DNA from: Bradyrhizobium sp. CB82
GTDB lineage: Bacteria; Pseudomonadota; Alphaproteobacteria; Rhizobiales; Xanthobacteraceae
Direction of reading: 5' to 3'
DNA length: 64,000 nt
Assembly: GCF_029714405.1 (NCBI RefSeq)
Contig: NZ_CP121651.1
Coordinates: 620,001-684,000 of the forward strand
Positions 10,968-32,425 of this stretch are shown one piece after another (the stretch's first letter is position 1; the number at the start of each line of letters is the position of its first letter). The notes under the pieces are model-generated. The model was given only the letters and a program-made list of their open reading frames with translations. It ran no database searches and was not told the origin of the DNA. The translations under genes and the position numbers were made by a program.

Positions 10968-12545
10968 ATGACTACAGCAGCCGCCCTGCGAGCCGACATG
11001 CCTGCGTCGACCACCAGCGTCTATACCGGCGCGGAATTCCTGGACAGCATCCAGGACGGAAGAGAAATCTACATCTACGGCGAGCGCGTCAAGAACGTCA
11101 CCCAGCATCCCGCCTTTCGCAATTCGGCGCGGATGGTGGCGCGCTGGTACGATCGTTTTCACGATAAGAAGGATCAGATCGGCGTCCTGACCGACACCGG
11201 CTCGGGACAATTGACTCATCCGTTCTTCCTCGGCTCGAAGACGGCCGACGATCTGATCAAGGGCCGCGACGCGATCGCCGAACTGCAGAAGGTTGCGTTC
11301 GGCTGGATGGGCCGTTCACCTGATTACAAGGCATCGTTCCTTGGCACGCTGGGTGCGAATTCGAGCTTCTATGGCGACTACGCCGGCAACGCCAGGAAGT
11401 GGTATGCCCGGACCCAGGAGCGGCTCGACTTCTGGAATCACGCCATCGTCAACCCTCCGATCGATCGCGATCGGGCGATCGAGGAGGTGCGCGACGTCTT
11501 CATGCATGTCGAGAAGGAGACCGACGCCGGCCTGATCGTCTCCGGGGCGAAGGTGGTCGCAACCGGCTCGGCCTTGACGCACTACAACTTCATCGCCCAC
11601 TACGGCATCCCGATCAAGGACAAGTCGTTCGCGCTGATCTTCACGGCGCCGATGGATGCCAAGGGCATCAAGTTGATCGCCCGCTCGTCCTACGAATTCA
11701 CGGCGGCGGCGACTGGCTCGCCGTTCGACTACCCGCTGTCGAGCCGCTTCGACGAAAACGACTCGATCCTCGTGTTCGACAAGGTGCTGGTGCCCTGGGA
11801 AAACGTCTTCATCTATGGCGATGTCGACAAGATCAACCAGTTCTTCCCGGCGTCCGGTTTCATCCCGCGGTTCACGCTGCACGGCGTGACGCGGCTGGCC
11901 GTGAAGCTCGACTTTATCGCCGGCCTGTTTTCGATGGCCGTCGAAGCGACCGGCTCCAAGGACTTCCGCGGCGTGCAGACCGCCGTGGGGGAGGTGATCG
12001 CCTGGCGCAATCTGTTCCACGGCATTGCGGACGCGATGGTGAAATCGCCGATCGCCTGGCAGGGCACCGAGGGCTACAATCTGCCCAACCTAAACTACGG
12101 GCTGGCATATCGTGTGTTCGCGCCGATGGCCTATCCGCGGATCAAGGAATTGATCGAGCGCCATGTCGCGAGCGGCCTGATCTATCTGCCGTCGAGCTCG
12201 GCCGATCTGGAGAGCGATGCGATCCGGCCCTATCTCGATCGCTTCGTGCGCGGCTCGAACGGCTATGCCGCGATCGACCGGATCAAGCTGCTCAAGCTGC
12301 TGTGGGACGCGGTCGGCTCCGAATTCGGTGGCAGGCACGAGCTCTACGAGCGCAACTATGCCGGCAATTACGAGAACCTGCGGGTCGAGACGCTGAACGC
12401 CGCGGCCGCCACCGGGGACCTCGGCGCCATGCAGGATTTCGTGCGCAACTGCATGAGCGACTACGACGTCTCCGGTTGGACGGCGGAGGATCTGGTTAAT
12501 CCCGATGACATCAACCTCGTCAGCCGCGGACTGGTGCAGGGCTGA
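10968..12545 (+). CDS. FADH2-dependent aromatic monooxygenase, HpaB/PheA1-like
   Basis: A 525-residue oxygenase of the 4-hydroxyphenylacetate 3-hydroxylase family (acyl-CoA dehydrogenase fold). It hydroxylates phenolic rings using free reduced FAD from a separate reductase. Family marks include [20 protein letters not shown] at the N-terminus, [43 protein letters not shown] and the flavin-binding [34 protein letters not shown] lies upstream of the ATG. The intradiol dioxygenase, catB and catC nearby suggest phenol to catechol; chlorophenol or hydroquinone hydroxylation is also possible in this family. Confidence 0.88.
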
Positions 12546-15403: not shown

Positions 15404-15543
15404 AGGTCTAGCATATCGCCAAATGGTCAATTTTGCTCCAGAGATTTGAGCGTTTAGCCGAAGACAACCGATATCGGTCGGGTCCAAGCTCTGTGCTGGC
15501 TACGCAGGAAACCTGGGGCTCGCTTCAGATGGAGGATACGCTG

Positions 15544-18086
15544 ATGGGATCGCACTACGATGTCGTTGTGGTCGGCGCAGGTTTGCCGGTTTGTACGCAG
15601 TGCACAAAATGCGCGACGAGCTTGGGCTGAATGTTCAAGCCTTCGAGGCGGCCGGAGGAGTGGGCGGTACATGGTGGTGGAATCGGTATCCCGGCGCCCG
15701 CTGCGATTTCGAATCGATCCACTACAGCTACTCCTTTTCCGAAGAGATACAGCGCGAATGGGAGTGGTCGGAGCGCTTTGCCGGGCAGCCGGAAATCTTG
15801 GCCTATCTGGAATGGGTGGCTGACAAGCTGGATGTCCGCCGCGCATTTCATTTCAATACGCGCGTGACGTCGACGACGTGGGATGACAAGGCCGCGCGTT
15901 GGATAATCTGTACCGATGACGGAGCCACCTGCACGGCACGCTTTGTAGTGCCTTGTGTCGGCGGCCTTTCTGTCGCGAAGGAGCCGGAGTTTCCGGGCTC
16001 AGAGACATTCAGGGGCGAACTCTACCGGACGAGTAGTTGGCCGCACGAGCCCGTGGACTTCACTGGCAAGCGGGTTGCGGTGATCGGCACGGGCTCGACA
16101 GGCATCCAGGTTATCCAGGAGATTGCGAACGAGGCGGCGGAGCTGACCGTGTTTCAGCGGACGCCCAATTTCGCCGCTCCCCTGGGCAATGAACCCGTCG
16201 ATCTGGCGCAGCGGCGATGGAATGCAGAGCATCACGCCGAGCTGCGAGCGGGCTCGCGCCAACATATGATCGGCGTGCCCTACGACCCGCCCAGCGGTCC
16301 TGCACTTGCAGCGACGCCGGATGAGCGGCGCAGGATCTGCGACAAGTATTGGGACCGCGGCGGCTTTCGCCTGCTCGTCTCGACATTCAGCGATGTGATT
16401 TTCAACCAACAGGCCAACGAAACTATCGCAGAATATATCCGCGAACGTATCCGTGAGCGTGTGAAGGATCCTGCGACGGCAGCGTTGCTTTGTCCTACGG
16501 ACCATCCCTACGCGTCGAAGCGTCCGCCGTTCGAGACCGGTTATTACGAGGCCTACAACCTCCCGCATGTTCATCTTGTCGACGTGCGCTCCGTGCCGAT
16601 TGAGGCGATCACGCCAACCGGTGTTCGCACGTCGTCGAAATCCTACGAATTCGATGTGATCATCCTCGCAACTGGATTCGATGTCTTCACACGGCCGCTG
16701 TTGAAACTCGGCCTGAGGGGGCGCGATGGTCTGAAGCTCGAAGACAGATGGGCGAACGGCCCCACGAGCTATCTGGGTGTCCAGATCGCCGGTTTTCCAA
16801 ATCTGTTCCTCATCAACGGCCCGAAGAATGCGGTCGCGCTCTATAACGTTCCATTGGCGACCGAGGACAGCGTCGACTTTGTTGCTGCGGCTCTCGCCCG
16901 CGCCATAGCGGATAAGACCGCGACATTTGAGGCAACTTACGAGGCTGAAGAAGCCTGGGGCCGCCTGTGCGAAGGCATTCTGAACCTGACCGTCATCCCG
17001 CATTCCAAGGGCTCCTGGTACATGGGCGAGAACATCCCGGGCAAGGCGAGGGCGGCGTATTTCTTTGCGGGGGGCGCGCCGTTGTACCGTGCGATCTGTG
17101 CCGAGATCGCGCATGTGGGCTATGGCGGATTTGCCCTTGACCGTGTCTCGGCGCCTATCCCCCCATTGGTCAGACTCGATCCCGCCGCAGCGCTCCTCCT
17201 GGGCTCGATGCTGGCCCGCGGCATGAAGCCTCTCGATGAGCTCAATCTGAATGAGGTGCGAGCGGTGGCCGAGTCCCTGAGGGAGCTGCAGCTGCCAGGA
17301 CCCGCAATGCGAGTCGAAACCGTCGAGGCGCCTCGCGCTCGAATCTACATTCCCGACCGCGAGGGCACTCTGCCGGTGATCGTGTTCTATCATGGAGGTG
17401 GTTGGATCTCCGGGTCGCTCGATTTGGCCGATGCTCCCTGCCGAACGCTCGCCGACGAAATTGGAGCAATCGTCGTATCCGCGCACTATCGGCTCGCACC
17501 AGAACATCCGTTCCCGGCCGCGACCGATGATACATTTGCTGCGCTAGGCTGGGTCTGGAAGCACATCAGCGCTTACGGCGGCGATTCCGATCGGATCGTC
17601 GTCATGGGTGAGAGCGCCGGCGCGAATCTGGCCGCAGTCGCTGCCATCCGCGCACGCGATGCCGGCATTCCGCTCGCGGGGCAGGTGCTGATTTATCCTC
17701 CGATTGATCCGGAGGCATCCACGGCATCCCGCACCGAGTTCGCAAATGGCCCCTTCTTTACTCGGGCCATTGGCGAGAAGATGTGGGGCGCTTACCTGGG
17801 TGGGGCCGAAGTGACCATGCTCGCCGCGCCCTCGAGGGCTCCAACCTTGGCCGGACTTGCACCCGCACTCGTCCTCACTCTCGAGCTCGATATGAGCCGC
17901 GACGAGGCTGAGGATTATGCCCATGCTTTGGCTTCGGCCGGAGTTCCTGTCCGGTTGCATCGCTTCGATGGACTGTTCCATGGAGTGTTCAACATGAGCG
18001 CGTTCATCCCGGGCGTTCGAGAAATGTATGCGTCGATCGGTGATTTTGTGTCCTCTTGCAAAGAGCGGGTAACCGAAGCTGCATAA
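15544..18086 (+). pseudogene. Baeyer-Villiger monooxygenase fused to alpha/beta-hydrolase (esterase), frameshifted near the start
   Basis: About 847 codons encode two enzymes in one chain. Residues 1-540 are a PAMO/CHMO-like type I BVMO: first Rossmann VVVVGAG, GGVGGTWWWNRYPGARCD, second Rossmann GKRVAVIGTGSTGIQV, FQRTPNF and VIILATGFD. Residues 590-847 are an HSL-type esterase: HGGGW oxyanion motif, GESAG nucleophile, Asp in LELDMSRDEAEDYA and His in FHGVFN. A ketone would become an ester and then alcohol plus acid. ATG 15544 follows GGAGG. At 15582-15584 one T is missing from the GAGFAGLYA codons, so the first 13 codons are out of frame with the rest. The fingerprint reads FRGELYRTSSWP, with Arg in place of His. 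Either a real null allele or a base-call error. Confidence 0.85.
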
Positions 18087-18656: not shown

Positions 18657-19805
18657 CTACCGCGCGAGCCGAAACTTTCCGCCCTCGACCTTGATCAGGA
18701 ACGCCGACCGGGCGTCATAGCCATTGTGGTTCTGGGGGCTCATCGTCGACACCCCGTTGTTCAGGTAGACATCCCTTACCCGCTCTAGTGCATCACGCAG
18801 CGCGATGCGGAATTCCGGCGTGCCGGGTTTCGCAATTGTCATCGCATCCGGTGCAGCCTGCCTGACCAGCGTCATCGCGTCCCACAGATGTGCGGCGAAA
18901 ATGTTGGGTCTGCTACCGTTCACCTTCTCGTAGGCCGCCACGAACTCATCACGCGCGCGGCGGAACGGATCTTCCGAGGCGAGGTCGTCGGCGATGGTGA
19001 AGGCCTCTCCGGCAAACACCGCACCTTCAACGTTGGCGCCGCCGAGCTTAATGAAGTCCTCGGTGGCGACACCGTGGGTCTGGTAGATCCTGCCTGCATA
19101 GCCGCGGGTTCGGAGCGCTTCCTGAGGCAGAACGGCCGGCGTACCCGCAGAGGCGATGAACACGGCGTCCGGATTGGTGGCGATCACCTTCAACGCCTGT
19201 CCGATGGCGCTGGTATCGGAACGGGCATAGACCTCGTGGGTCGTCACGGTAAGGCCAAGCCCCGGCGCGAGCCGAGACACTTCGGCGTAATAGCCCTCAC
19301 CATAGCCATCGGAGACACCGATATAGCCAAGCGTCTTGACGCCGGATGCGGCGACATGCCTGAGGATCGCAGCCGCCATCAGATCGTCGTTCGGTACCAC
19401 CTTGAAAGCCCATCTGCGGCGGTCGTCGATCGGCTGCACGATCGACGTGGCTGCGGCGAGGGAAACGATGGGGGTCTTTGACTCCATGGCGACGTCAATC
19501 ATGGGCATGGTCACGGGCGTCAGTGACGACCCGATCAGGACGTCGACGCCGTCCTGGATTACCAGCCGTCGCGCGTTCTGCGTGCCCTTGGTCGGATCCG
19601 ACTCGTCGTCAAGCGCGATGCAGACGACCTTCTCCCCGGCGATCTCCGCTGGCAGCGCGGCAATGGTTCGCATCTGCGGCTGGCCGAGCGAAGAGCCCGG
19701 CCCGCTGGCCGACACCACGACCCCCACCTTGATGTCCGCTTGCGCCTGCGACAGCAGCAGCATCGTGCTCGCAAGAACCCTCAGCCCGGCAGCAGCCAGC
19801 TTCAT
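18657..19805 (-). CDS. ABC transporter periplasmic binding protein, branched-chain type
   Basis: A 382-residue Peripla_BP_6 protein. The start at 19805 follows GGAGGAGAGCGACA and yields a signal peptide (MKLAAAGLRVLASTMLLLSQ, cleavage after AQA). The mature protein opens DIKVGVVVSASGPGSSLGQP; ALDDESDPTKGTQNARRLV and GYIGVSDGYGEGYY are family features. It is less similar to the other two binding proteins here than they are to each other. It is divergent from a LuxR regulator with a 22-bp palindrome between. No permease or ATPase genes are adjacent. Confidence 0.88.
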   Translation of the reverse strand: MKLAAAGLRVLASTMLLLSQAQADIKVGVVVSASGPGSSLGQPQMRTIAALPAEIAGEKVVCIALDDESDPTKGTQNARRLVIQDGVDVLIGSSLTPVTMPMIDVAMESKTPIVSLAAATSIVQPIDDRRRWAFKVVPNDDLMAAAILRHVAASGVKTLGYIGVSDGYGEGYYAEVSRLAPGLGLTVTTHEVYARSDTSAIGQALKVIATNPDAVFIASAGTPAVLPQEALRTRGYAGRIYQTHGVATEDFIKLGGANVEGAVFAGEAFTIADDLASEDPFRRARDEFVAAYEKVNGSRPNIFAAHLWDAMTLVRQAAPDAMTIAKPGTPEFRIALRDALERVRDVYLNNGVSTMSPQNHNGYDARSAFLIKVEGGKFRLAR

Positions 19806-19900
19806 TGTCGCTCTCCTCCGCACAATCAATTCTTGTGATGCGCAGGCTCTTGGGGCCCAGCGCACCATACTTGGATTATCCGCCGCCTGAAGGCCTGCGT

Positions 19901-19922
19901 CTGTCCCCACGATTGGGGACAG
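19901..19922. promoter_or_regulatory. 22-bp operator, copy A
   Basis: CTGTCCCC-N6-GGGGACAG, an 8-bp perfect inverted repeat in the gap between the divergent binding protein (start 19805) and LuxR gene (start 19999). A near-identical site of the same geometry lies at 20778-20799, just before the P450. The pair is best explained as binding sites of the LuxR protein encoded between them. Confidence 0.6.
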
Positions 19923-19998
19923 TTAGCAACTGCAGCACCAGCGCGAGGCTTCAAAAGCCCCGATGCGGCTGATAGACTTCAAAAAACAGGAGGAAGCG

Positions 19999-20787
19999 AT
20001 GACGGCGGACCCGCGTCCCACCGATGTGGCATCCGTGCTCGCGCCGTTAGTGCTGGCGATCGGCCGGCCGTCGTTCCCGAAGCTGCTGCTCGATGGCGTG
20101 CGGGATGCGGCTAATGTCGGCCATTGCATGGTCTTCGCTTTCGAAGGCCGCACCACGCGCTGTCCGCTCGGAATCGGAAACATCCAGATCGGGCCGGACC
20201 TGGGCGCGGCCTATGCCGAGCACTTCTATGCCGCGGATCCCAACCACGACACGCTGCTGCGCCAGCAGTCCTCGCCGCGGCCGATCCTGTTGCCGAGATT
20301 CTCGCCGCGCATGTACAGCAACACCTACCGGAAGCTGTTCTTCGAGGACGGCGAGATCGTCGATAAGAGCGCTACTGCGATCTGGGTGGCTGACATCTGC
20401 TTCTACCTGAACTTCTATCGGACGAAAGATCAGGGGCAGTTCACGTCGGCCGAGGCCGCCCGCCTCGCCGAGCTTGCTCCGGCGCTGGCGGCGATCGTGG
20501 CGCGACATTGCCAGGAGCAGGATGTTCCCGATCCGCGCACGCAGATCGAGCGACTGTTCGCGACGCGCGAATGTTTTATGACATTGACCCAGCGTGAGAG
20601 GGACGTGTGCCGGCGGATCCTGTCCGGTTACAGCACCGAGGCGATCGCGACCGATCTCGGGATCAGCCTGCACTCGGCATTCACCTACCGCAAGCGGGCC
20701 TATGAGAAGCTTGGCATCTCCTCGCAGAATGAGCTGTTCGCCATTGCGCTACGGCTCATCGCGCGGCCGCATTTCGGCTGTCCCTGA
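19999..20787 (+). CDS. LuxR-family transcriptional regulator
   Basis: A 262-residue protein; ATG 19999 follows AGGAGG. The C-terminal LuxR HTH (LTQRERDVCRRILSGYSTEA, then IATDLGISLHSAFTYRKRAYEKLG) spans roughly residues 190-250. The N-terminal 180 residues form a sensor region with HFYAADPNHDTLL, faintly recalling autoinducer-binding domains, but without a confident match. No LuxI-type synthase is present, so it is either a solo that senses a metabolite or has another signal. It lies between the binding protein and P450 genes, flanked by two matching 22-bp palindromes. Confidence 0.85.
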   Translation: MTADPRPTDVASVLAPLVLAIGRPSFPKLLLDGVRDAANVGHCMVFAFEGRTTRCPLGIGNIQIGPDLGAAYAEHFYAADPNHDTLLRQQSSPRPILLPRFSPRMYSNTYRKLFFEDGEIVDKSATAIWVADICFYLNFYRTKDQGQFTSAEAARLAELAPALAAIVARHCQEQDVPDPRTQIERLFATRECFMTLTQRERDVCRRILSGYSTEAIATDLGISLHSAFTYRKRAYEKLGISSQNELFAIALRLIARPHFGCP

Positions 20788-20799
20788 CGACAGGGACAG
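20778..20799. promoter_or_regulatory. 22-bp operator, copy B
   Basis: CTGTCCCT-N6-AGGGACAG, an 8-bp perfect inverted repeat overlapping the LuxR stop codon and 45 bp before the P450 start. Same arm length, spacer and core as copy A at 19901-19922, differing by one complementary base pair in the arms. Confidence 0.6.
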
Positions 20800-20844
20800 A
20801 CTTCCAGGTCGTGAGACGATACGCTCGCGCCCGGAGGACCGATC

Positions 20845-22020
20845 TTGAGCACAGCCCCCCGTATCGACGTCGACGTTGCCGCCTTCTGGCACGATCCCTA
20901 TCCGACTCTGGCGCGCCTCCGCCGCGAGGCGCCTATTGCGTTTGTGCCGCAGCTCGGCAGCACACTTCTGTGCAGCCGGGACGACATTTATGTCTGCGAA
21001 AAGCAAATCGAGGTGTTCAGCTCGCACCAACCCGAAGGCCTCATGAACCGGCTGATGGGGCACAACATGATGCGCAAGGATGGAGACGCGCATCTCGCCG
21101 AGCGCAAGGCGATCTTCCCTGCCGTCTCCCCGAAGACTGTCAAGACGCACTGGACCACTCAGTTTCAGAGTCATGCCGACCGGATCCTTGACGCTCTGGT
21201 GCCTGCCGGGGCTTGCGATTTCGTGCGCGAGTTCGCGCTGCCGTTCTCGGCGGAATGCCTGAAATCGATCACCGGCCTCACCAACATGCGTTTCCAGGAC
21301 ATGAATGCCTGGTCGCAAGGCATGATTGACGGCATCGCCAACTACGTCGGCGATCCTGATGTCGATGCACGCTGCCGCGCGGCGACCTCGGGCATCGACG
21401 CCGCGATCGACGAGATGGTGCCACTGTTGCGCCGACAGCCCGACCAGAGCCTGCTCGGCGTCATGCTGGCCTGCGAGATGCCGATGGAGAGCATTCGCGC
21501 CAACATCAAGCTGGCGATCAGCGGCGGGCAGAACGAACCGCGCGATGCGATTGCCGGCACCGTCTGGGCGCTGATCACCCATCCGGACCAGCTCAGGCTG
21601 CTGATGGCCAGAGAGATTCCCTGGATGCAGGCGTTCGAGGAGTATACCCGCTGGATATCGCCGATCGGCATGTCGCCACGACGGGTGGCGAAGCCATGGA
21701 CAGTGCGCAATGTCGACTTCGAACCGGAGGAACGGGTGTTCCTGATGTTCGGCTCAGCCAACCGCGACGAGAAGCACTTCTCGCGGCCGGATGAATTCGA
21801 CGTCCGGCGCGATACCAGCAAGAGCATCGCGTTCGGTGCCGGGCCGCATTTTTGCGCCGGCGCCTGGGCGTCGCGGGCGATGGTGGCCGATGTCGCCCTG
21901 CCCGCCATCTTCACGCGGCTCGAACGCTTGCGCCTGATCGCGGACGAGCCGGCACGGATGGGAGGCTGGGCGTTCCGCGGATTGCTCAACCTGCCGGTGA
22001 CGTGGGACCGCCCAGCCTAA
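20845..22020 (+). CDS. Cytochrome P450 with atypical I-helix
   Basis: A 391-residue P450; TTG start 7 bp after GGAGG. The heme loop FGAGPHFCAGAWASR (Cys near residue 336) and ExxR (EEYTRW near 270) are intact. The I-helix reads SGGQNEPRDAIAG (near residue 226) instead of AG-DT, so the usual acid-threonine pair is replaced by Asn-Glu. P450s lacking the threonine are known (for example P450cin uses Asn). It is co-directional with the LuxR gene and preceded by operator copy B. The substrate is unknown and no ferredoxin is adjacent. Confidence 0.9.
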   Translation: MSTAPRIDVDVAAFWHDPYPTLARLRREAPIAFVPQLGSTLLCSRDDIYVCEKQIEVFSSHQPEGLMNRLMGHNMMRKDGDAHLAERKAIFPAVSPKTVKTHWTTQFQSHADRILDALVPAGACDFVREFALPFSAECLKSITGLTNMRFQDMNAWSQGMIDGIANYVGDPDVDARCRAATSGIDAAIDEMVPLLRRQPDQSLLGVMLACEMPMESIRANIKLAISGGQNEPRDAIAGTVWALITHPDQLRLLMAREIPWMQAFEEYTRWISPIGMSPRRVAKPWTVRNVDFEPEERVFLMFGSANRDEKHFSRPDEFDVRRDTSKSIAFGAGPHFCAGAWASRAMVADVALPAIFTRLERLRLIADEPARMGGWAFRGLLNLPVTWDRPA

Positions 22021-22394: not shown

Positions 22395-23606
22395 CTACTT
22401 CACCAACTCGCACCCGCCTTCCGCCAGCGGACGGAACGCCTGATCGGCGGGAATGGTCGAGACCAGCTTGTAATAGTCGTACGGATATTTCAACTCCTCC
22501 GGCTTCTTCACCTCGAACAGGTACATCGGATGCACGACGCGACCGTCCTGGCGGATCGTGGTGTCACCGAACAGCTTGTCCTTGCCCTTGAACTTCTTCA
22601 TCTCGGGCACGACCTGCTTCGCATTGTCGCTGCCGGTGGCGGCGACGGCGTTGAGATAAGCGAGCGTGGAAGCATAGACGCCGGCCTGGTTGCCGCTCGG
22701 CATCTTGCCGTTCATGCCGGGCCGCGCGGCAAAACGCTTGGCGAACGCGCGGGTATCGTCATTCATGTCCCAGTAGAAGGCTTCCATGAGCTGGAGACCC
22801 TGCGCGACCTTGATGCCCATGCCGTGAACGTCATTGATGAAGAGCAGGAAGGCGACGAGCTTCTGCCCGCTCTGCTGGATGCCGAACTCGGCGGCCTGCT
22901 TGACCGCGTTGATGGTGTCACCGCCCGCATTGGCAAGGCCGATGACCTGCGCTTTCGAGCTTTGCGCCTGGAGCAGGAAGGAGGCGAAATCGGAGGTGCC
23001 GAGCGGATGCTTGGAGGAGCCCAGTACCTTGCCGCCGTGTCCCTCGATGTATTTCTGCGCCTCCGCCTCGATGCCCTTGCCGAGCGCGTAGTCGACGGTC
23101 AGGAAATACCAATCCTTGCCGCCCCGCGACATCATCGCCGCAGCGGTGGTGTTGCCGGTCGCCCAGGCATCGTTGACCCATTGGATCGTGTTGGGCGAGC
23201 AGGCCTTGCCGGCGAGATCCGAGCTTGCCGTCGAGGACGCAAGGAATGTCATGCGGCTGTCGCGCAGCAACGCATTGATGGAGAGGCCGACGGCCGAGTT
23301 CGGCACGTCGACGATGGCGTCGACGCCCTCGACGTCGAGCCATTTGCGCGCGATGGCGTTGCCGACATCGGCCTTGTTCTGGTGATCGGCATAGACGATC
23401 TCGACCTTGATGTCCTTGCCGCCGCCGTTGAAATCCTCCGCCGCCATGCGCGCGGCCTCGACAGAACCCATGCCGTTGGTGTCCTGGAAGATGCCGGAGA
23501 TGTCGTTGAGCACGCCGATGCGCACGACATTGTCGGATATCTCCGCGCTCGCCGCGCCGGTCACCAAGCTTGCGGCCAGTGCGAGTGTCCACCTCAGGTG
23601 CTTCAT
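22395..23606 (-). CDS. ABC transporter periplasmic binding protein, aromatic/branched-chain type
   Basis: A 403-residue Peripla_BP_6 protein, from the second of two tandem ATGs after GGGAGGGA. Signal peptide MKHLRWTLALAASLVTGAAS, mature EISDNVVRIGVLNDISGIFQ. It shares ADHQNK, HPLGTSDFASFLLQAQ and IGLANAGGDTI with the binding protein at 1095-2312, so they are paralogues. It follows the ferredoxin and P450 genes on the same strand, implying that it captures the P450's substrate or a related acid. Transport subunits are absent from the window. Confidence 0.9.
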   Translation of the reverse strand: MKHLRWTLALAASLVTGAASAEISDNVVRIGVLNDISGIFQDTNGMGSVEAARMAAEDFNGGGKDIKVEIVYADHQNKADVGNAIARKWLDVEGVDAIVDVPNSAVGLSINALLRDSRMTFLASSTASSDLAGKACSPNTIQWVNDAWATGNTTAAAMMSRGGKDWYFLTVDYALGKGIEAEAQKYIEGHGGKVLGSSKHPLGTSDFASFLLQAQSSKAQVIGLANAGGDTINAVKQAAEFGIQQSGQKLVAFLLFINDVHGMGIKVAQGLQLMEAFYWDMNDDTRAFAKRFAARPGMNGKMPSGNQAGVYASTLAYLNAVAATGSDNAKQVVPEMKKFKGKDKLFGDTTIRQDGRVVHPMYLFEVKKPEELKYPYDYYKLVSTIPADQAFRPLAEGGCELVK

Positions 23607-23656
23607 CATTCCCTCCCCTGTGTGTTGGTTGCCGGTCGTTGCCGGCATCTTGAGCA

Positions 23657-23980
23657 TCACACCTGCCGCTCCGGCAGTCTCAGCACGAGCCCGTCGAGCT
23701 CGGGCGTGATAGTGATCTGGCAGGACAAGCGGCTATTCGGCCGCCGCTCGGCGGCGGTGCCGTCGAGCAGCGCGTCCTCGTCGTCGGCCATCACGGGCAG
23801 GCGCGCGAGCCAGCTCTCGTCGACATAGACGTGGCAGGTCGCGCACATGGCGTTGCCGCCGCATTCGGCCAGGATGCCGTCGAGGCCGTGACGGGTCGCG
23901 GCCTGCATGGCGCTCTCGCCGCCCGAGGTCTCGACGCGCTCGGGCTTGCCGTCGGGATGGATGAAGATGATGTCGGGCAT
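23657..23980 (-). CDS. [2Fe-2S] ferredoxin, palustrisredoxin-like
   Basis: A 107-residue adrenodoxin/putidaredoxin-type ferredoxin. The cluster ligands are in CGGNAMCATC (C-x5-C-x2-C) plus the fourth Cys in SRLSCQI. It ends LDGLVLRLPERQ, as in electron donors of CYP199A enzymes. GAGGAG precedes the ATG at 23980. It lies 12 bp after the P450 stop, so it is almost certainly that enzyme's electron donor. No ferredoxin reductase is seen in the window. Confidence 0.9.
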   Translation of the reverse strand: MPDIIFIHPDGKPERVETSGGESAMQAATRHGLDGILAECGGNAMCATCHVYVDESWLARLPVMADDEDALLDGTAAERRPNSRLSCQITITPELDGLVLRLPERQV

Positions 23981-23992
23981 CAAGGCTCCTCG

Positions 23993-25201
23993 TCAGGCCG
24001 GGGTGATGGTGACCGGCAGGCTGTCGAGCCCGCGCAGCGTGTTGTTGAAGCGGCGCTTCGGCTCGCCCGTGATCTCGATCTTCGCGATGCGGCGTGCCAG
24101 CGCCGTCAGCATCACCTCGCCTTCGAGACGGGCGACGAGCTGGCCGACGCACATGTGGATGCCGGAGCCGAAGCCGACATGGCCGGAGGTGCGGCGGGTG
24201 ATGTCGTAGCTGTCGGGGTCGTCCCAGCGGCGGGGATCGCGATTGGCAGCGGCGAGGAACATCAGCACCTTCTCGCCCTCGCCGATTCGGGCACCGGAGA
24301 GTTCGACCTCGCGCGTGGTGGTGCGGAAGAAGGTCTGCACCGGGCTCTCGAAGCGCACCGCCTCCTCGAAGGCCCCACGGGCGAGCGAAGGATCCTCGCG
24401 CAGGCGCTGCCACTGATCGGGGAAGCGCGCGAGGCAATAGACGGCGGCGCCGATGCCGTTGACCGTCGTGTCGAGTCCGGCAGATAGCAGCGAGCGCACC
24501 AGCAGCGGCGCTTCGGTGGCCGTGATAGCACCCTCGTCGACCTGTGCGTGAATGCAGGCCCCGAAGCCGCCGGGCGCCAGATTCTCGCGCTGGCACTGCT
24601 CGGCAACATAGGCCTGATGCGGCGCCGATCGTTCGATCGCCTCCTGGCGCAACCGGTTGGGCGGGCCGAAGGCGTTGAACACGACGCTGGCATAGGGAAT
24701 CAGATGCTCGCGTCCCTCCGGCTTCAGGCCGAGCGCATCCGGGAAAATTGACAGCGGGTAGGCCTCGGCAAGGTCGGTGATCGCGTCGAAGCTGCGCTTG
24801 TCGAGCAGCGCGTCGACCCGTGCTTCCGCCGCCGCGGCAAAGCGGTCGCGCACCTGCTTCATTACCGTCGGCGACAGCACTTTTGACAGCACGGCGCGCG
24901 TGCGGGTGTGCGCAGGCGGATCGGCCTCCAGGATCAGGCTCGGCGGCCGCCATGGCGTTTCCTTCTTGAAATCGGACAGACCGACGCCGCGGCTGGAGCA
25001 GAACGTCGCGGGATCGTTCAGCACCGCGTGGACCTCGGCATAGCGCGCCACGCCATAGACCTTCCATTTGTCGAGGTAGACCACCGGGCCCGCCTCCCGC
25101 AGCAGCTCATGGGCGGGATAGGGATCGGCAAAAAAAGTCATGTCGAAGGGATCGACGTCGAGATGCGGGACGCCCGATTCCGCGGAGCCGGATGCGGTCA
25201 T
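23993..25201 (-). CDS. Cytochrome P450, CYP199A-type (para-substituted benzoate oxidase)
   Basis: A 402-residue P450 that reads very like CYP199A4 of Rhodopseudomonas: SPVQTFFRTTTREVELSG, GEGEKVLMFLAAANRDPRRW, SGHVGFGSGIHMCVGQLVAR with the heme Cys, and RRFNNTLRGLDSLPV. The I-helix is AGLDTTVNG. Known CYP199A enzymes O-demethylate 4-methoxybenzoate to 4-hydroxybenzoate. Ferredoxin and binding-protein genes follow on the same strand, and a MarR gene is divergent. This is the best-supported substrate prediction in the window, by recall of the family rather than by alignment. Confidence 0.92.
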   Translation of the reverse strand: MTASGSAESGVPHLDVDPFDMTFFADPYPAHELLREAGPVVYLDKWKVYGVARYAEVHAVLNDPATFCSSRGVGLSDFKKETPWRPPSLILEADPPAHTRTRAVLSKVLSPTVMKQVRDRFAAAAEARVDALLDKRSFDAITDLAEAYPLSIFPDALGLKPEGREHLIPYASVVFNAFGPPNRLRQEAIERSAPHQAYVAEQCQRENLAPGGFGACIHAQVDEGAITATEAPLLVRSLLSAGLDTTVNGIGAAVYCLARFPDQWQRLREDPSLARGAFEEAVRFESPVQTFFRTTTREVELSGARIGEGEKVLMFLAAANRDPRRWDDPDSYDITRRTSGHVGFGSGIHMCVGQLVARLEGEVMLTALARRIAKIEITGEPKRRFNNTLRGLDSLPVTITPA

Positions 25202-25230
25202 GGAAGACCTCCCTCATTTTGAGCTTGTGA

Positions 25231-25249
25231 AAGGGCGGCGCATGCCCTT
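25231..25249. promoter_or_regulatory. Candidate MarR operator before the CYP199A-type operon
   Basis: AAGGGC-N7-GCCCTT, a perfect 6-bp inverted repeat in the short gap between the divergent P450 (start 25201) and MarR (start 25258 or 25285). Confidence 0.35.
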
Positions 25250-25257
25250 AGGTCTTT

Positions 25258-25791
25258 GTGTCCGCCGCGAGTCAGAATCCCGCTATGCCGCCGTCCTCGA
25301 CCAGAGCCCGCCAGAAGTCTTCGCCCGTTGAGGCAGGACCGACGCTCGATCTCGAACGCTACGTGCCGGCGTTCATCACCTTCATCGCCAACAAGCTGTC
25401 GAACAGCGCGACCGCATTCTATCAGCGGGAGTTCGGCGTCAACGTCACGGAATGGCGGATCATGTCGCTGCTGGCGATCGAGCCGGGCATTCCGGCTTCG
25501 CGCATCTGCCACGTCATCGGCTTCGACAAGGGCCCGGTGAGCCGGACGCTGGCGGGTCTCGAGAAGCGCGGCCTGGTCTCGATCCGCACCGACCCGAACG
25601 ATGGCCGCACTCATTCGATCGCACTGACGGCGAAGGGCCGCGCCACCCATGACAAGGTGATCGTCGCAGCGTTCGAGCGCGAGCGGCGGCTGTTGTCGTG
25701 CCTGAACGAGGACGAGCGTGAGGTCCTGATCGGCTTGCTGCGCCGGCTGCATGAGAATCTCGGCGCCGTGACGGACAGCAGCTTCAGCTGA
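25258..25791 (+). CDS. MarR-family transcriptional regulator
   Basis: A 177-residue MarR protein from GTG 25258, or 168 from ATG 25285. The winged helix is clear: WRIMSLLAIEPGIPASRICH, VIGFDKGPVSRTLAGLEKRG, and the wing RTDPNDGRTHSIALTAKG. It is divergent from the P450-ferredoxin-binding-protein operon with only 56 bp between, so it is the likely repressor, with an aromatic acid as the probable inducer. It is distinct in sequence from the MarR at 518-1006. Confidence 0.86.
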   Translation: MSAASQNPAMPPSSTRARQKSSPVEAGPTLDLERYVPAFITFIANKLSNSATAFYQREFGVNVTEWRIMSLLAIEPGIPASRICHVIGFDKGPVSRTLAGLEKRGLVSIRTDPNDGRTHSIALTAKGRATHDKVIVAAFERERRLLSCLNEDEREVLIGLLRRLHENLGAVTDSSFS

Positions 25792-27659: not shown

Positions 27660-29396
27660 TCAGTACCCGGCAGCTAGCCCCGAATTGCGGCGGGGATCGT
27701 TCGCGCCGTAGTAGCGGTTGTTGCCGACCTGCTTGCCGTTGAGTGACGGCGCACCGATGATGATGACCGCGAGATGGTTGGCCGGTTGCGGCGGGCCGAA
27801 CTTGTGGCCCATGCTTTCCAGGATCTTTTGCGTATCCGGCGACAGGGCGTAGTTCTCGACGTTGGTCAGGTCCGGCAGCCATTGCTGGTGGATACGCGGC
27901 ATGTCGACGGCTTCCTGCGCGTTCATGTCGTAGTCGATGGCGTTGATCATGGTCTGCAAGACAGCCGTGATGATGCGGCTGCCGCCGGGCGTGCCCACCA
28001 CCATGACCGTCTTGCCGTCCTTGGTGACGATGGTCGGGCTCATCGAGGACAGCGGCCGCTTGCCGGGAGCGATGGCGTTGGCCTCGCCCTGCACCAGGCC
28101 GTAGAGGTTCGGCACGCCAACCTTGGCGGTGAAGTCGTCCATTTCATCGTTGAGTAGGACGCCGGTCTTGCCTGCCGTCACCTTGGCGCCAAACCAGTCG
28201 TTTAGCGTGTACGTCACGGATACCGCGTTGCCGTCCTTGTCCGCGATTGAATAGTGCGTGGTGTTGCTGCCCTCATGCGGCGCGACGCCGGGCTTGATGT
28301 CCTTGGACACGCCGGCCTTGTTCGGGTCGATCGCAGCACGGATCCTGGCCGCGTAAGCCTTGTCGAGCAGGCGGTCGAGCGGGTTCTTCACGAAGTCCGG
28401 GTCGCCCAGGTAGCTGTTGCGGTCCACATAAGCGTGGCGCATGGCTTCGATCTGGACGTGCACAGCCTGCGCGGAGTGATAGCCCATCTCCTTCAGCGGA
28501 TAGCCCTCCAGGATATCCAGGATTTCGCAGATGATGACGCCGCCCGAGCTCGGCGGCGGCGCGGAGATCACATGGTAGCCGCGATAGTCGCATTCGACGG
28601 GTGCGAGCTCACGCGTCTTGTAGCCGTCGAGGTCTTCCTGCGTGATCAGGCCTTTGCCGGCCTGGCTCGACGCCACGATGGCGCTGCCGACCCAGCCCTT
28701 GTAGAAGCCGTCGGTGCCTTTGCTGCTGATCTCGCGTAGGGTTTTGGCCAGCTCGGATTGCACCAGCTTATCACCCACGTCGAACGGCTGGCCGTTGTTG
28801 AGGAAGATGGCGTTCGATGCCGGATCGTCCTTGAAATCGTCGGTCGCCGTGCGCAGCAGGTCGATGTCGCCCTGGTCGAGCGCAAATCCCTGCTCGGCGA
28901 GCTGGATAGCAGGGGCGATCAAGTCGGCGCGCTTCATGGTGCCGTACTTTTCGCGCGCATATTCCATGCCGGACACCGAGCCTGGCACGCCCACGGCGAG
29001 GTGCCCCTTGGTCGACGCGCCCTTGATGACGTTGCCGTCCTTGTCGAGATACATGTTGGCAGTCGCGCCCTTGGGCGCCGTTTCGCGGAAATCGAGGAAC
29101 GTCTTGCGGCCGTCGGCGAGTTGGATCGTCATGAAACCGCCGCCGCCCAAATTGCCGGCCGCAGGATAGACCACCGCCAATGCGTAACCGACGGCCACTG
29201 CCGCATCGACGGCATTGCCGCCGCGCTTGAGCACATCCACGCCTGCCTGCGTCGCGAGATGCTGCGCGGAAACCACCATGCCGTTCTCTGTGGCAACCGG
29301 CGCAACCGACGCCGCCCGCGCTGGGCCGAACGTGATGAAGCTGATCGACACGATCGCGGTGACCATCCACCGCACGCCTGTTCCTGGATTTTGCAA
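27660..29396 (-). CDS. ggt: Gamma-glutamyltranspeptidase
   Basis: A 578-residue secreted Ntn-hydrolase that cleaves glutathione and other gamma-glutamyl compounds. TTG 29396 is chosen because GAGGAG precedes it and gives a signal peptide (VTAIVSISFITFGPARAA). The large subunit has GGNAVDAAVAVGYALAVVYP and GGGGFMTI. Autocleavage occurs before the catalytic Thr in GSNTTHYSIADKDGNAVSVT, and PLSSMSPTIV is the small-subunit oxyanion loop. Length is normal. Its neighbours are relics, so the gene stands alone. Confidence 0.92.
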   Translation of the reverse strand: MQNPGTGVRWMVTAIVSISFITFGPARAASVAPVATENGMVVSAQHLATQAGVDVLKRGGNAVDAAVAVGYALAVVYPAAGNLGGGGFMTIQLADGRKTFLDFRETAPKGATANMYLDKDGNVIKGASTKGHLAVGVPGSVSGMEYAREKYGTMKRADLIAPAIQLAEQGFALDQGDIDLLRTATDDFKDDPASNAIFLNNGQPFDVGDKLVQSELAKTLREISSKGTDGFYKGWVGSAIVASSQAGKGLITQEDLDGYKTRELAPVECDYRGYHVISAPPPSSGGVIICEILDILEGYPLKEMGYHSAQAVHVQIEAMRHAYVDRNSYLGDPDFVKNPLDRLLDKAYAARIRAAIDPNKAGVSKDIKPGVAPHEGSNTTHYSIADKDGNAVSVTYTLNDWFGAKVTAGKTGVLLNDEMDDFTAKVGVPNLYGLVQGEANAIAPGKRPLSSMSPTIVTKDGKTVMVVGTPGGSRIITAVLQTMINAIDYDMNAQEAVDMPRIHQQWLPDLTNVENYALSPDTQKILESMGHKFGPPQPANHLAVIIIGAPSLNGKQVGNNRYYGANDPRRNSGLAAGY

Positions 29397-29807
29397 GGGG
29401 CACTCCTCGGGATGGCCGGTGATCCCGGCGCATATCGTTGTGAAGGCGCGCACCCTAGCAGGTTGTGCCGTCGAGACCGAGTAAGAATTACTCGTTAGCG
29501 GCGTCAGGCCGGTGCGGGCCGGCCGATTGCGAGGGAAACCGTAAAGGGACGTTTGGCTGCTACCGCCTCCCCCCTGCAGTGAAATTACAGCAAGCGTCAC
29601 ATATGATATGATGGCTGCAGCTGATGATTTGCATCTAGAGGGCACTCTCAATCGCCAATCGCGTGCTGCCACTGCTTACGGTGCATGCGCAAGCCGCTGC
29701 GATCAGCGGACTAGGGGCGATGGAATACTCCTCCCTTTGAAAGTCCGCGACTTTGGCCGGATACTGGATCAAGGTCCTTGGCTATCAGCAATCCGAGGAG
29801 GGCGATC
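29397..29807. other. No gene recognised
   Basis: Upstream region of the transpeptidase. Nothing protein-like or repetitive was seen; its promoter must lie here on the minus strand. Confidence 0.4.
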
Positions 29808-30027
29808 ATGGCGATCCAGATCGTGATGGACCACACCGGCGACAGCCGTCATCCTTTCAACTCCGACGACGCGCAAGAACTGGCGAAGGCGGAGCAGCGG
29901 TTCTACGAGCTGACGAATATCGGTTTCACCGTAGCGGTCCGGATTGGTCCAGGTCAGGTCTCGCAGGTCCGATCGTTCGCCCGAACGCGGAAGAAACCGT
30001 CTTCTTCCCAGGCTGGTCGGCGGCTAA
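29808..30027 (+). pseudogene. Small conserved gene broken by two single-base losses
   Basis: GAGGAGG precedes ATG 29808. The sequence reads MAIQIVMDHTGDSRHPFNSD through ELTNIGFTVAVRIGPGQVSQ to RSF, shifts to PNAEETVFFP, then shifts to RLVGG and a stop at 30025. Rejoined, this is a complete protein of about 73 residues. I recall near relatives in rhizobia of unknown function. Two deletions 30 bp apart truncate or garble it. Confidence 0.5.
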
Positions 30028-30201
30028 GTCGCCATTCCTGCCATGTTCGGCTTTCGATCGATGCCGCAGCGGCCGATCGCCGTCGGGGTTCACGGTGACA
30101 TTGCGACTGCTTTCGCGGTCGTTTCCGGTGAAGTCGGCTAAGACAGGTCGTATCTGACCATGGAGGTCAGCGACGGCGTGCAGCCAGTGCTGCAACTGCA
30201 C

Positions 30202-32145
30202 TCAGGTCAGGTCTTTCGGCATGGTGATGCCGAAGCGGAGAATCTGGCGGTGAATGGTCGAGCGATCGACGCCGCGTTCGCGTGCTACCCGCGAGACGTT
30301 CCAGCGATTGTTGCGCAACGCTGTCAGTAACTCGTCGGCTTGCTGTGACGTTGCCACTCCCCCACGTGCCGGTTTTCCGGATATCTCCACACGCAGAGGA
30401 TGAGCGATCCGGTCCGGCAGATCGGCAAGATCGATTGTGCCGTCGGTCGACAGCGCGCAGCCATGATCGAGCGCGTTGACCAGCTCTCGGATGTTGCCGG
30501 GCCATTGGTACTTGAGCAGCGCGCCGCGCGCGCTTGCCGTCAGCGCATAGTTGGCCTTGTGCTCCGTCGAAAGTCGATGCAGGGATTGATCGATCAGCCA
30601 CTCGATATCGGTCCGCTGACGCAGCGGAGGCAACGCAAACACCGCGCCGTTGAGGCGGAAATAGAGATCCTCGCGGAACTGCCCGGTCTTCACCAGCGCG
30701 ACGAGGTCGCGATGGGTGGCTGCGATGACGCGGACATTGAGCGGGACCGGCCGGGTGCGGCCGACCGGTGTCACCTCGCGTTCGGCGAGCACACGCAACA
30801 GGCGCGTCTGCGACGAAATCGGCATGTCGCCGATCTCGTCAAGGAACAGGGTGCCGCCGTCGGCTTCGAGCAAGAGACCTTTCTTGCCCTTGGCCGCCGC
30901 GCCGGTGAAGGCACCCGCCTCGTGGCCAAACAGCTCGCTCTCGATCAGGCTTTCCGGCAGCGCGGCACAGTTGACCGCAACGAAAGGTTTGCCTGCCCGC
31001 GCACTGACCGAATGCAGCGCCTTCGTCAGGTGCTCCTTGCCAGTGCCGGTTTCGCCGGTGATGAGCAGGCCCATCTGGGTATTGATGAGCTTGGCCGCGT
31101 GCGTCACCACCTGATGCATGGTGGGATCACCTCGGAACAGGCTGCGCAACGGCGCCGGAAGCGCCGACTCGCTGCGGGACGAGGCCGGTGCGGCCAGCTT
31201 GTTCGGGGGCGGCAAGGTTTGCGCGAACAGTGTCGCGCCGCTGTTGGCAAGCCGCAGCGCGCGTTGGCCGGTGGGCCGCGAATGGGCGAAGCGCGGCAGA
31301 TCGTCGATCGTGCACTCGAAGATGTCGGACACGCTGAAGCCGTCGGCTCGCAGGCGAAGGTCCGGACGCTTCCTCAGTTCGCGGGCGAGTAGCTGCCTCG
31401 CGCGATTGTTGAAGCCGATGATGCGGCCGCTGCTATCGACGGCCATCACATAATCCGGATCGACGTCGGCGAATTCAGCGGAGCCGGACAGCTTGATGAT
31501 CCATTCCTGCCGGAAACGATTCAGCAGGTTCGCGTTCTCGATCTTGTGGGCGAACGACTTGACCAGTTGCAGTGCCAGGAACTGGCTGGCCTTCGGTTCC
31601 GGCGAGCGCAGCGCGGAGATATCCAGCACCGCAGCGAGCTTGCCGCTGGGGTCGAAGACCGGCGCAGCCGTGCAGGTCAGCGGAATGTGGGTGGCGTCGA
31701 AATGGTCCGACTGATGCACCGTCAGGGCTTCTTCGGTCGCGATGCATGTGCCGACTGCGCACGTGCCGGCATGCGGCTCGTTCCAATCGGCACCGAGATA
31801 AAGGCCGGCCTTGCGAAGCGTGTTGTTGAACGTCGGGTCGCCGATGAAATCCACCGTGATGCCCCTGGCGTCGGTCAGCAACAGCACGTAGCCGAGTCCG
31901 GCGATCTGGCGATACAGCATCTCGACGCCGAAGCGAGCCGTGTGGAGGAATTCGTCCATCGCGTCGCGATGCTCGCGCAGCCGTCTGGAGGTGACGATAT
32001 GAGCATCGCGCAGGACCACCGGATCGAGCTTGTGTTCGGAGACGCATCGTACCCACGACTGATGGATGATCGCATCACGCGCGCTGCTCTGCCCGACCGC
32101 AACGCGAACCAGCTCGTCGATGTGCGCAGCCTGCTCCGTAATCAC
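30202..32145 (-). CDS. Sigma-54-dependent transcriptional activator, AcoR type
   Basis: A 647-residue enhancer-binding protein. Order: N-terminal GAF sensor (about 60-200), PAS-like segment (YVMAVDSSGRIIGFNNRARQ, about 225), AAA+ domain (Walker A GETGTGKE, sigma-54-contacting GAFTGA, Walker B LFLDEIGD, about 345-560) and a C-terminal Fis HTH (NNRWNVSRVARERGVDRSTI). It is divergent from the flavin monooxygenase, whose promoter region contains a -24/-12 element and TGTTGC/GCAACA palindromes. AcoR relatives sense small metabolites through GAF. GTG start after GGGAG. Confidence 0.92.
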   Translation of the reverse strand: MITEQAAHIDELVRVAVGQSSARDAIIHQSWVRCVSEHKLDPVVLRDAHIVTSRRLREHRDAMDEFLHTARFGVEMLYRQIAGLGYVLLLTDARGITVDFIGDPTFNNTLRKAGLYLGADWNEPHAGTCAVGTCIATEEALTVHQSDHFDATHIPLTCTAAPVFDPSGKLAAVLDISALRSPEPKASQFLALQLVKSFAHKIENANLLNRFRQEWIIKLSGSAEFADVDPDYVMAVDSSGRIIGFNNRARQLLARELRKRPDLRLRADGFSVSDIFECTIDDLPRFAHSRPTGQRALRLANSGATLFAQTLPPPNKLAAPASSRSESALPAPLRSLFRGDPTMHQVVTHAAKLINTQMGLLITGETGTGKEHLTKALHSVSARAGKPFVAVNCAALPESLIESELFGHEAGAFTGAAAKGKKGLLLEADGGTLFLDEIGDMPISSQTRLLRVLAEREVTPVGRTRPVPLNVRVIAATHRDLVALVKTGQFREDLYFRLNGAVFALPPLRQRTDIEWLIDQSLHRLSTEHKANYALTASARGALLKYQWPGNIRELVNALDHGCALSTDGTIDLADLPDRIAHPLRVEISGKPARGGVATSQQADELLTALRNNRWNVSRVARERGVDRSTIHRQILRFGITMPKDLT

Positions 32146-32218
32146 GGCAGATACTCCCGGATGTTTCCTCGCACGTTGTTGCGTTGAGTGTCACTCGGAT
32201 TGTGCCGCCGATCAAGTT

Positions 32219-32251
32219 TGTTGCGTGCAACACCTGTTGCACGGCGCAACA
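32219..32251. promoter_or_regulatory. Enhancer (UAS) palindromes for the sigma-54 activator
   Basis: Two perfect inverted repeats, TGTTGC-GT-GCAACA (32219-32232) and TGTTGC-ACGGC-GCAACA (32235-32251), about 70-100 bp upstream of the -24/-12 promoter. This is the usual enhancer position for an AcoR-type activator. An extra TGTTGC half-site lies near 32178. Confidence 0.55.
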
Positions 32252-32316
32252 GCCGTTGCGCCGTGGCGGCGTCATTAACACGAGGAAATAATAGGTAATT
32301 TCGAGATCGGGCGCCG

Positions 32317-32332
32317 TGGCACGAGGCTTGCT
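32317..32332 (+). promoter_or_regulatory. Sigma-54 (-24/-12) promoter
   Basis: TGGCACGAGGCTTGCT is an essentially consensus TGGCAC-N5-TTGC element on the plus strand. It points at the monooxygenase start 94 bp downstream, with the divergent gene encoding a GAFTGA-containing sigma-54 activator. Confidence 0.75.
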
Positions 32333-32425
32333 AACATTGGCGCGGAGGCAAAATTCGACCTCGACAACAACGCACCGGACCACGACGCGAGAGCGATCGA
32401 CGCCGGCACAAGGGAGAATGAAACC

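Follow-up and report, generated by a model that had tools for sequence, protein, structure and literature searches.

A LuxR-type regulator gene in Bradyrhizobium lies between twin 22-bp palindromes that probably control a substrate-binding protein gene and a cytochrome P450 gene

In the classical lux box, CTGT and ACAG stand 8 bp apart, and VqsR of Pseudomonas aeruginosa recognizes TCGCC-N8-GGCGA, a widely spaced inverted repeat, instead of a lux box. PipR, a LuxR homologue of Pseudomonas sp. GM79, answers plant macerate and peptides and not acyl-homoserine lactones (AHLs), and its response requires a transporter, according to the accessible portions of PMC4981722. Here we describe a 64,000-nucleotide stretch of Bradyrhizobium sp. 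CB82 (NZ_CP121651.1, positions 620,001 to 684,000; hereafter the window), part of the contig that we call C2 (900,293 bases), in which the gene of a LuxR-type regulator is bracketed by two 22-bp palindromes. From the sites themselves, their conservation, their polarity and their co-distribution with the regulator gene, all established at the level of sequence, we infer that the palindromes are quite probably the operators of the LuxR-type protein, which would bind them and exert class II activation of a binding-protein gene and a P450 gene, with an aromatic compound as the most likely class of ligand. The central features are as follows.

18657-19805, minus strand: gene of a substrate-binding protein of the Peripla_BP_6 type (PF13458, E 1.1e-40), the presumed first target
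19875-19880, minus strand: -10-like box GATAAT, at offsets 21-26 from operator 1, with similar boxes in relatives
19899-19900, minus strand: AC flank of operator 1 on the binding-protein side, present in 17/17 non-redundant promoters of binding-protein genes
19901-19922, minus strand: operator 1, CTGTCCCC-ACGATT-GGGGACAG, a 7-8-7 palindrome with its polarity towards the binding-protein gene
19999-20787, plus strand: gene of the LuxR-type regulator, with a GerE helix-turn-helix and a ligand-binding fold that has no PF03472 match (Pfam, structure model, fold matches)
20778-20799, plus strand: operator 2, CTGTCCCT-GACGAC-AGGGACAG, with its polarity towards the P450 gene
20800-20801, plus strand: AC flank of operator 2 on the P450 side; A in 98/98 and C in 97/98 non-redundant P450 promoters
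20820-20825, plus strand: -10-like box TACGCT, at offsets 21-26 from operator 2
20845-22020, plus strand: cytochrome P450 gene (PF00067), the presumed second target

Both palindromes are exactly as a first-pass annotation of this DNA had described them, and each lies where it was placed: operator 1 in the divergent gap between the binding-protein gene and luxR, and operator 2 ahead of the P450 gene, where it covers the final 10 bases of luxR, stop included. The likely start of luxR is the ATG at 19999-20001 and not 19963; it is preceded by AGGAGG (19988-19993) and agrees with the frames of relatives, and the 261 residues following this Met served as the query in searches for relatives. Perfect matches to CTGTCCCY-N6-RGGGACAG are limited to operators 1 and 2, both in the window and in the whole genome (10,142,525 bases, 2 contigs). 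The genome scan that the annotation had proposed thus yields two exact sites in 10 Mb, both at this locus, rather than a motif scattered at random. When up to 3 mismatches are allowed, the window contains 4 matches where 0.80 are expected; the sole place with 1 mismatch genome-wide, C1:1364495, is within a transposase-like open reading frame (ORF).

The sites recur at the same genes in other genomes. A genome scan for named relatives returned 44 loci, 14 of them from Bradyrhizobium (L numbers denote loci and G numbers genomes of this analysis), and the sites of the latter all differ from CTGTCMC-N8-GKGACAG by at most 2 mismatches. Every one of the 11 Bradyrhizobium loci containing the P450 has the P450-side site, a count that leaves out L008, whose contig ends before the P450, and L012 and L016, which have no P450; the gap site is present in 9/9 loci with the divergent binding protein and was not seen in the 5 loci without that gene. 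In L005, L006, L008 and L017 the binding-protein gene has the CYP199A and ferredoxin genes immediately after it on its own strand, so that operator 1 may drive all three genes in those four loci; the CYP199A match of L007 is fragmented. Among 195 same-genus genomes, 93 contain the relaxed pattern exactly and 20 its reversed control. Thirty relaxed-pattern loci from such genomes were inspected: 22 lie 45-89 bp upstream of a P450 relative, including L085 and L086, where only about 100 residues match the P450 and the genes are thus fragments, and three precede an orthologue of the binding protein. These three binding-protein cases are unlinked to luxR (about 545 kb apart in G021, about 91 kb in G158, on different contigs in G109); the sites therefore move together with their targets. 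In a plasmid search all matches were below 60% identity (74 records). The earlier proposal that the twin operators define a small binding-protein/P450 regulon is supported by comparison: the sites are conserved, they lead back to the same two genes in trans, their promoters show polarity, and they are associated with the presence of the regulator gene. Judged from these sequence comparisons, the regulon is real and wider than that annotation saw, and its sites recur before the same genes in many related genomes.

The layout of the promoters gives the sites a direction. Among 98 non-redundant P450 promoters, each of which has a site with at most 2 mismatches, the arm proximal to the promoter and its flank, GGGACAGAC, are nearly invariant (each base in 97 or 98 of the 98), and in the distal arm GTC is invariant and the first two bases vary. 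A TANNNT box follows 19-23 bp past the site in 95/98 (500 shuffles: mean 2.6, largest 8), and at exactly 21 bp in 92/98. Given the -10-like boxes at 19875-19880 and 20820-20825, operator 1 therefore faces the binding protein and not luxR, and operator 2 faces the P450. Setting the -10 box at -12 puts the centre of the operator near -43, and transcription would be predicted to start near 20832 for the P450 and near 19868 for the binding protein.

We propose that a dimer of the LuxR-type protein would bind CTGTCNC-N8-GNGACAG, the half-site near the promoter overlapping the -35 region of a promoter that has no recognisable -35 box. Such a position over the -35 region, where the box is missing, suggests that the protein would most likely be a class II activator of RNA polymerase, and an activator touching polymerase is likewise favoured by the near-invariant arm, the fixed distance to the -10 and the lack of any sigma-70-like promoter match within 19700-21000. 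Operator 1 would then drive the binding-protein gene and operator 2 the P450 gene, with luxR itself, by the polarity rule, driven by neither. An operator spanning the -35 region would also suit a repressor that its ligand releases, as a dimer sitting there could either obstruct polymerase or recruit it; however, the near-invariant arm and the fixed -10 distance (21 bp in 92/98) fit polymerase contact, and the missing sigma-70-like match also speaks against a repressor, which we therefore consider unlikely.

What the activator would sense is suggested by its domains and by its targets. PF00196 (the GerE/LuxR-type helix-turn-helix) matches the regulator with E 8.2e-11 and is present in 34/34 aligned family members; the only other Pfam match is an overlapping, sub-threshold one to Sigma70_r4_2. 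PF03472 (Autoind_bind) matches 0/34 members at E up to 1, and the regulator gene is not among the genome's 7 PF03472 matches. The ligand domain is nevertheless predicted, from the structure model, to have a quorum-receptor-like fold. Y71, D79 and P80 are invariant in the alignment. The pocket residues of AHL receptors are given as W57, Y61, D70, P71, W85 and G113 (TraR numbering) in the accessible text of PMC10134790, and in the sequence alignment of the regulator family neither of the two Trp positions appears to be occupied by Trp. The name 'LuxR solo', used by the first-pass annotation, suits the predicted fold and the lack of a LuxI nearby but not the PF03472 definition; the regulator appears to work like a LuxR solo without being a PF03472-defined one.

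That no LuxI-type gene is present holds for the window but not for the genome, which has three long and two short matches to PF00765 (LuxI-type). The nearest on the window's contig is about 237 kb away (C2:877775) and no luxI lies beside the regulator; each of the three long matches has a PF03472 gene close by. The two short matches, at C1 4026795 and 2015608, are possibly fragments. Because the genome encodes LuxI synthases elsewhere, the missing neighbour cannot argue for a substrate ligand, and the earlier step from 'no LuxI' to a catabolic substrate is a weak one. An aromatic ligand is plausible on other grounds, namely the type of the binding protein, the GcoA/CYP199-type P450s and their repeated clustering in relatives. 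The solved chains nearest to the binding protein are 3sg0 (E 1.2e-158) and 4dqd (E 1.4e-156), and it is related to the 3ukj/3tx6 group; we take 3sg0, 4dqd and 3ukj to bind aromatic acids, the structure table showing generic names only. The target P450 is nearest to 6g71 (E 2.4e-99), presumably CYP1232A24, followed by 8u09 and the aromatic O-demethylase GcoA. The ligand would occupy the quorum-receptor-like domain, and an aromatic compound would be imported with the binding protein and oxidised by the P450.

Alternatively, the regulator might be an orphan quorum receptor for acyl- or aroyl-homoserine lactones (HSLs) that come from other LuxI enzymes of the cell or from neighbours. Its predicted fold and the three long LuxI-type matches would allow this, and cinnamoyl-HSL and p-coumaroyl-HSL are reported as signals of LuxR proteins in Bradyrhizobium and Rhodopseudomonas (accessible text of PMC10134790). 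Yet none of the 34 aligned members matches PF03472, two of the six named pocket residues, both tryptophans, appear to be without counterpart in the alignment, every long LuxI match already has its PF03472 gene nearby, and the targets are genes of uptake and oxidation; a quorum receptor is thus rather improbable.

The sites are associated with the presence of the regulator gene. Of the 195 same-genus genomes, 125 contain a regulator relative (at E 1e-40 or better) and 183 a P450 relative (at E 1e-120). The exact relaxed pattern occurs in 85/125 regulator-positive versus 8/70 regulator-negative genomes (Fisher 4e-15), and the reversed control in 12/125 and 8/70. We also read about 200 bp upstream of the P450 in each of 77 genomes, 49 regulator-positive and 28 regulator-negative. 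All 49 of the former have a site within 2 mismatches at the P450 promoter (13 exact, 33 with one mismatch, 3 with two), and the reversed pattern never comes below 3 mismatches in the 77 regions.

Beyond the genus, the exact 24-mer with its AC flank was found in 12/27 same-genus genomes and 0/269 other genomes of the family, and regulator relatives (E 1e-30) in 25/296 family genomes, from 6/47 genera. Nine of the 10 other-genus genomes with a regulator relative were examined: in eight of them a site with no more than 2 mismatches lies next to the regulator or to a presumed target, and in the remaining one the divergent gap contains a site with 3 mismatches. One other genus is represented by five genomes in which the site lies between the regulator (45-49% identity) and a divergently oriented CYP199-like P450 (55-58% identity to that of the window); the AC flank and a TA at offset 21-22 are present in 5/5 of these promoters, and Liv-type transporter genes follow in L131, the only one of the five read gene by gene. 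In L128 and L129 the site precedes an apparent Liv-type transporter operon that ends in a relative of the binding protein. Further away, a site with one mismatch occurs near a 33%-identical relative in a Burkholderiales metagenome-assembled genome (MAG; L042), where it has the AC flank and is followed by TATCCT at offset 22, and a Steroidobacter MAG (L019) has a single-mismatch site behind the regulator, before hydrolase-like and flavin monooxygenase-like genes and without AC flank or box.

Several observations weigh against this assignment. A site within 2 mismatches is also found at the P450 promoter of 11/28 regulator-negative genomes (3 exact, 5 with one mismatch, 3 with two); the contrast with 49/49 gives a Fisher value of 4e-10, or 1e-5 after dropping 9 negative genomes with a more distant P450 type, and these values, like that for the relaxed pattern, ignore shared ancestry. 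The exact promoter sites are those of G009, G061 and G105; these and the other regulator-negative genomes with an exact site anywhere, 8 in all, have no regulator match to E 1e-6, an empty result that alone shows little. In G009, G061 and G105 the site may serve another protein, or a recent loss may account for it. Four of the 30 pattern loci lie elsewhere and one is between another LuxR-type gene and an SDR-like gene. Strict TANNNT is found in just 8/17 binding-protein promoters (shuffles: mean 0.27, largest 2), several of the remainder having GATAAT at that position, and the full box in 1/5 of the CYP199-like promoters of the other genus. Taken as a set, 29 distant loci with 24-37% identity show no enrichment of the motif (19 versus 21 in the control). 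Within the source genome, looser searches are near or at background, with 105 places at up to 3 mismatches versus 80 for the reversed-pattern control and 6 versus 6 for the relaxed pattern with 1 mismatch; for this reason we claim no third target there, and the looser motif was dropped as a means of finding the regulon.

The sites kept in regulator-negative genomes would be expected if the operators served a different regulator, such as the MarR-type protein at 25258, a PucR-type protein at 14123 or some other protein, with luxR a bystander. This is quite improbable, because the site co-occurs with the luxR-type gene and because in the other genus it separates the regulator from a different P450, and the DNA examined there matches neither MarR nor PucR above 35% identity; most named loci with sites likewise show no MarR/PucR match, the Bradyrhizobium MarR being confined to L013 and L015. 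That the palindromes are RNA hairpins or terminators, as the overlap of operator 2 with the luxR stop codon might suggest, is extremely improbable, since neither has a terminator-like match, operator 1 lies in a divergent gap upstream of both genes, the spacing to the -10-like boxes is fixed and one arm runs into an invariant flank.

Beyond the P450 target lie four further genes.

22395-23600, minus strand: second Peripla_BP_6 binding protein (Pfam), a neighbour whose membership in the regulon is not shown
23657-23983, minus strand: [2Fe-2S] ferredoxin adjoining the CYP199A gene (4ltu, E 1.6e-47), a neighbour
23993-25201, minus strand: CYP199A-type P450 (2fr7, E 1.7e-221; 4dnz, which is CYP199A4, E 3e-221), a neighbour
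25258-25791, plus strand: MarR-type regulator (Pfam), a neighbour

The same four kinds of gene that make up this block (22395-25791) adjoin the LuxR-P450 pair in L013 and L015. Membership of CYP199A is assigned by sequence (E about 1e-221 over residues 7-402 of 402), and the ferredoxin and this P450 stand some 1.6-3.2 kb past the target P450. We take 2fr7 to be CYP199A2 and 4ltu to be HaPux. CYP199A enzymes O-demethylate p-methoxybenzoate and some members also veratrate, as described in the accessible part of PMC11530827.

Elsewhere in the window, further genes of aromatic-catabolism type encode a P450 (2315-3493), an AMP-binding ligase (3801-5675) and an HpaB-type 4-hydroxyphenylacetate 3-hydroxylase (10968-12545). 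At 15500-18086 (plus strand) a Baeyer-Villiger-type monooxygenase is fused to an alpha/beta hydrolase; close to the first Rossmann motif its reading frame seems to be disrupted, which may reflect a damaged gene or an error in the sequence. A gamma-glutamyltranspeptidase, a sigma-54 activator and a flavin monooxygenase with a SnoaL-like front domain occupy 27660-34234. In other genomes, L139 (2386-3335) and L140 (2808-4579), as well as L087, show a different LuxR-type gene followed by a 22-bp site of the same kind and then an SDR-like gene, with a GntR-like regulator near in L139 and L140; the operator type is apparently common to a LuxR-type paralogue in those two. In L136 (10508-10529), L085 and L086, sites with full flank and -10-like box precede P450-like starts or fragments, with a full P450 2-5 kb further on, and these are perhaps decayed duplicate copies of the P450 that kept their promoter. 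Four other exact sites in the genus were not counted as marking targets: the palindrome lies behind an Hsp20-like ORF in L083, ahead of a hypothetical ORF in L098, next to an AraC-like ORF in L099 and within an ORF in L109, the names being taken from translations.

How this locus compares with described systems depends on which part is considered. In its enzymes it resembles the aromatic O-demethylases of the GcoA and CYP199A types, as the target P450 is nearest to 6g71, 8u09 and GcoA and a CYP199A gene with its ferredoxin lies in the same cluster; the word 'regulator' is absent from the main text of PMC11530827, so that this paper offers nothing on gene control for comparison. Among the listed titles and abstract openings on LuxR solos, Bradyrhizobium, P450/CYP199 and binding proteins, in a search of partial coverage with full texts aside, none describes this regulon. 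In its operator the locus departs from the classical lux box: CTGT and ACAG are 14 bp apart at both 22-bp operators, and the sites of relatives share this geometry, but it was also the geometry used in the search. VqsR is similar in two respects, its widely spaced repeat and its structure (5xhx), which is among the nearest solved folds of the ligand domain at 16-17% identity; its arm spacing differs by 2 bp, if the motif given above is right, and it acts on quorum-sensing genes (qscR, in the accessible text of PMC4211393).

PipR is comparable in being a LuxR homologue near ABC transporter genes with an inverted repeat before its target, and it is an earlier example of a LuxR homologue that depends on a transporter for its response, but its target is a peptidase gene (accessible portions of PMC4981722) and not a Peripla_BP_6 binding protein and a P450. 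With the PF03472-sense solos, as the accessible text of PMC10134790 presents them, the regulator shares two domains, a GerE helix-turn-helix, a quorum-receptor-like fold (here predicted), the lack of an adjacent luxI and a palindromic site in the target promoter, and it differs in that 34/34 aligned members have no PF03472 match. Tentatively, it may be the best-resolved member of a large family with the quorum-receptor fold that is hidden from PF03472 surveys, has its own 22-bp operator and promoter grammar, and senses plant- or lignin-derived aromatic acids to switch on uptake and P450 oxidation in Bradyrhizobium, related genera and perhaps further. With a relative of the regulator in 125 of the 195 sampled same-genus genomes, the regulator, its putative operator and the two candidate targets are ready for the bench. 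If the ligand is an aromatic acid, the quorum-receptor fold would here be used as a metabolic sensor, which would also hint at how GcoA- and CYP199-type P450 genes may be controlled. Set beside the described solos, this family suggests that counts of LuxR solos based on PF03472 can miss whole families.
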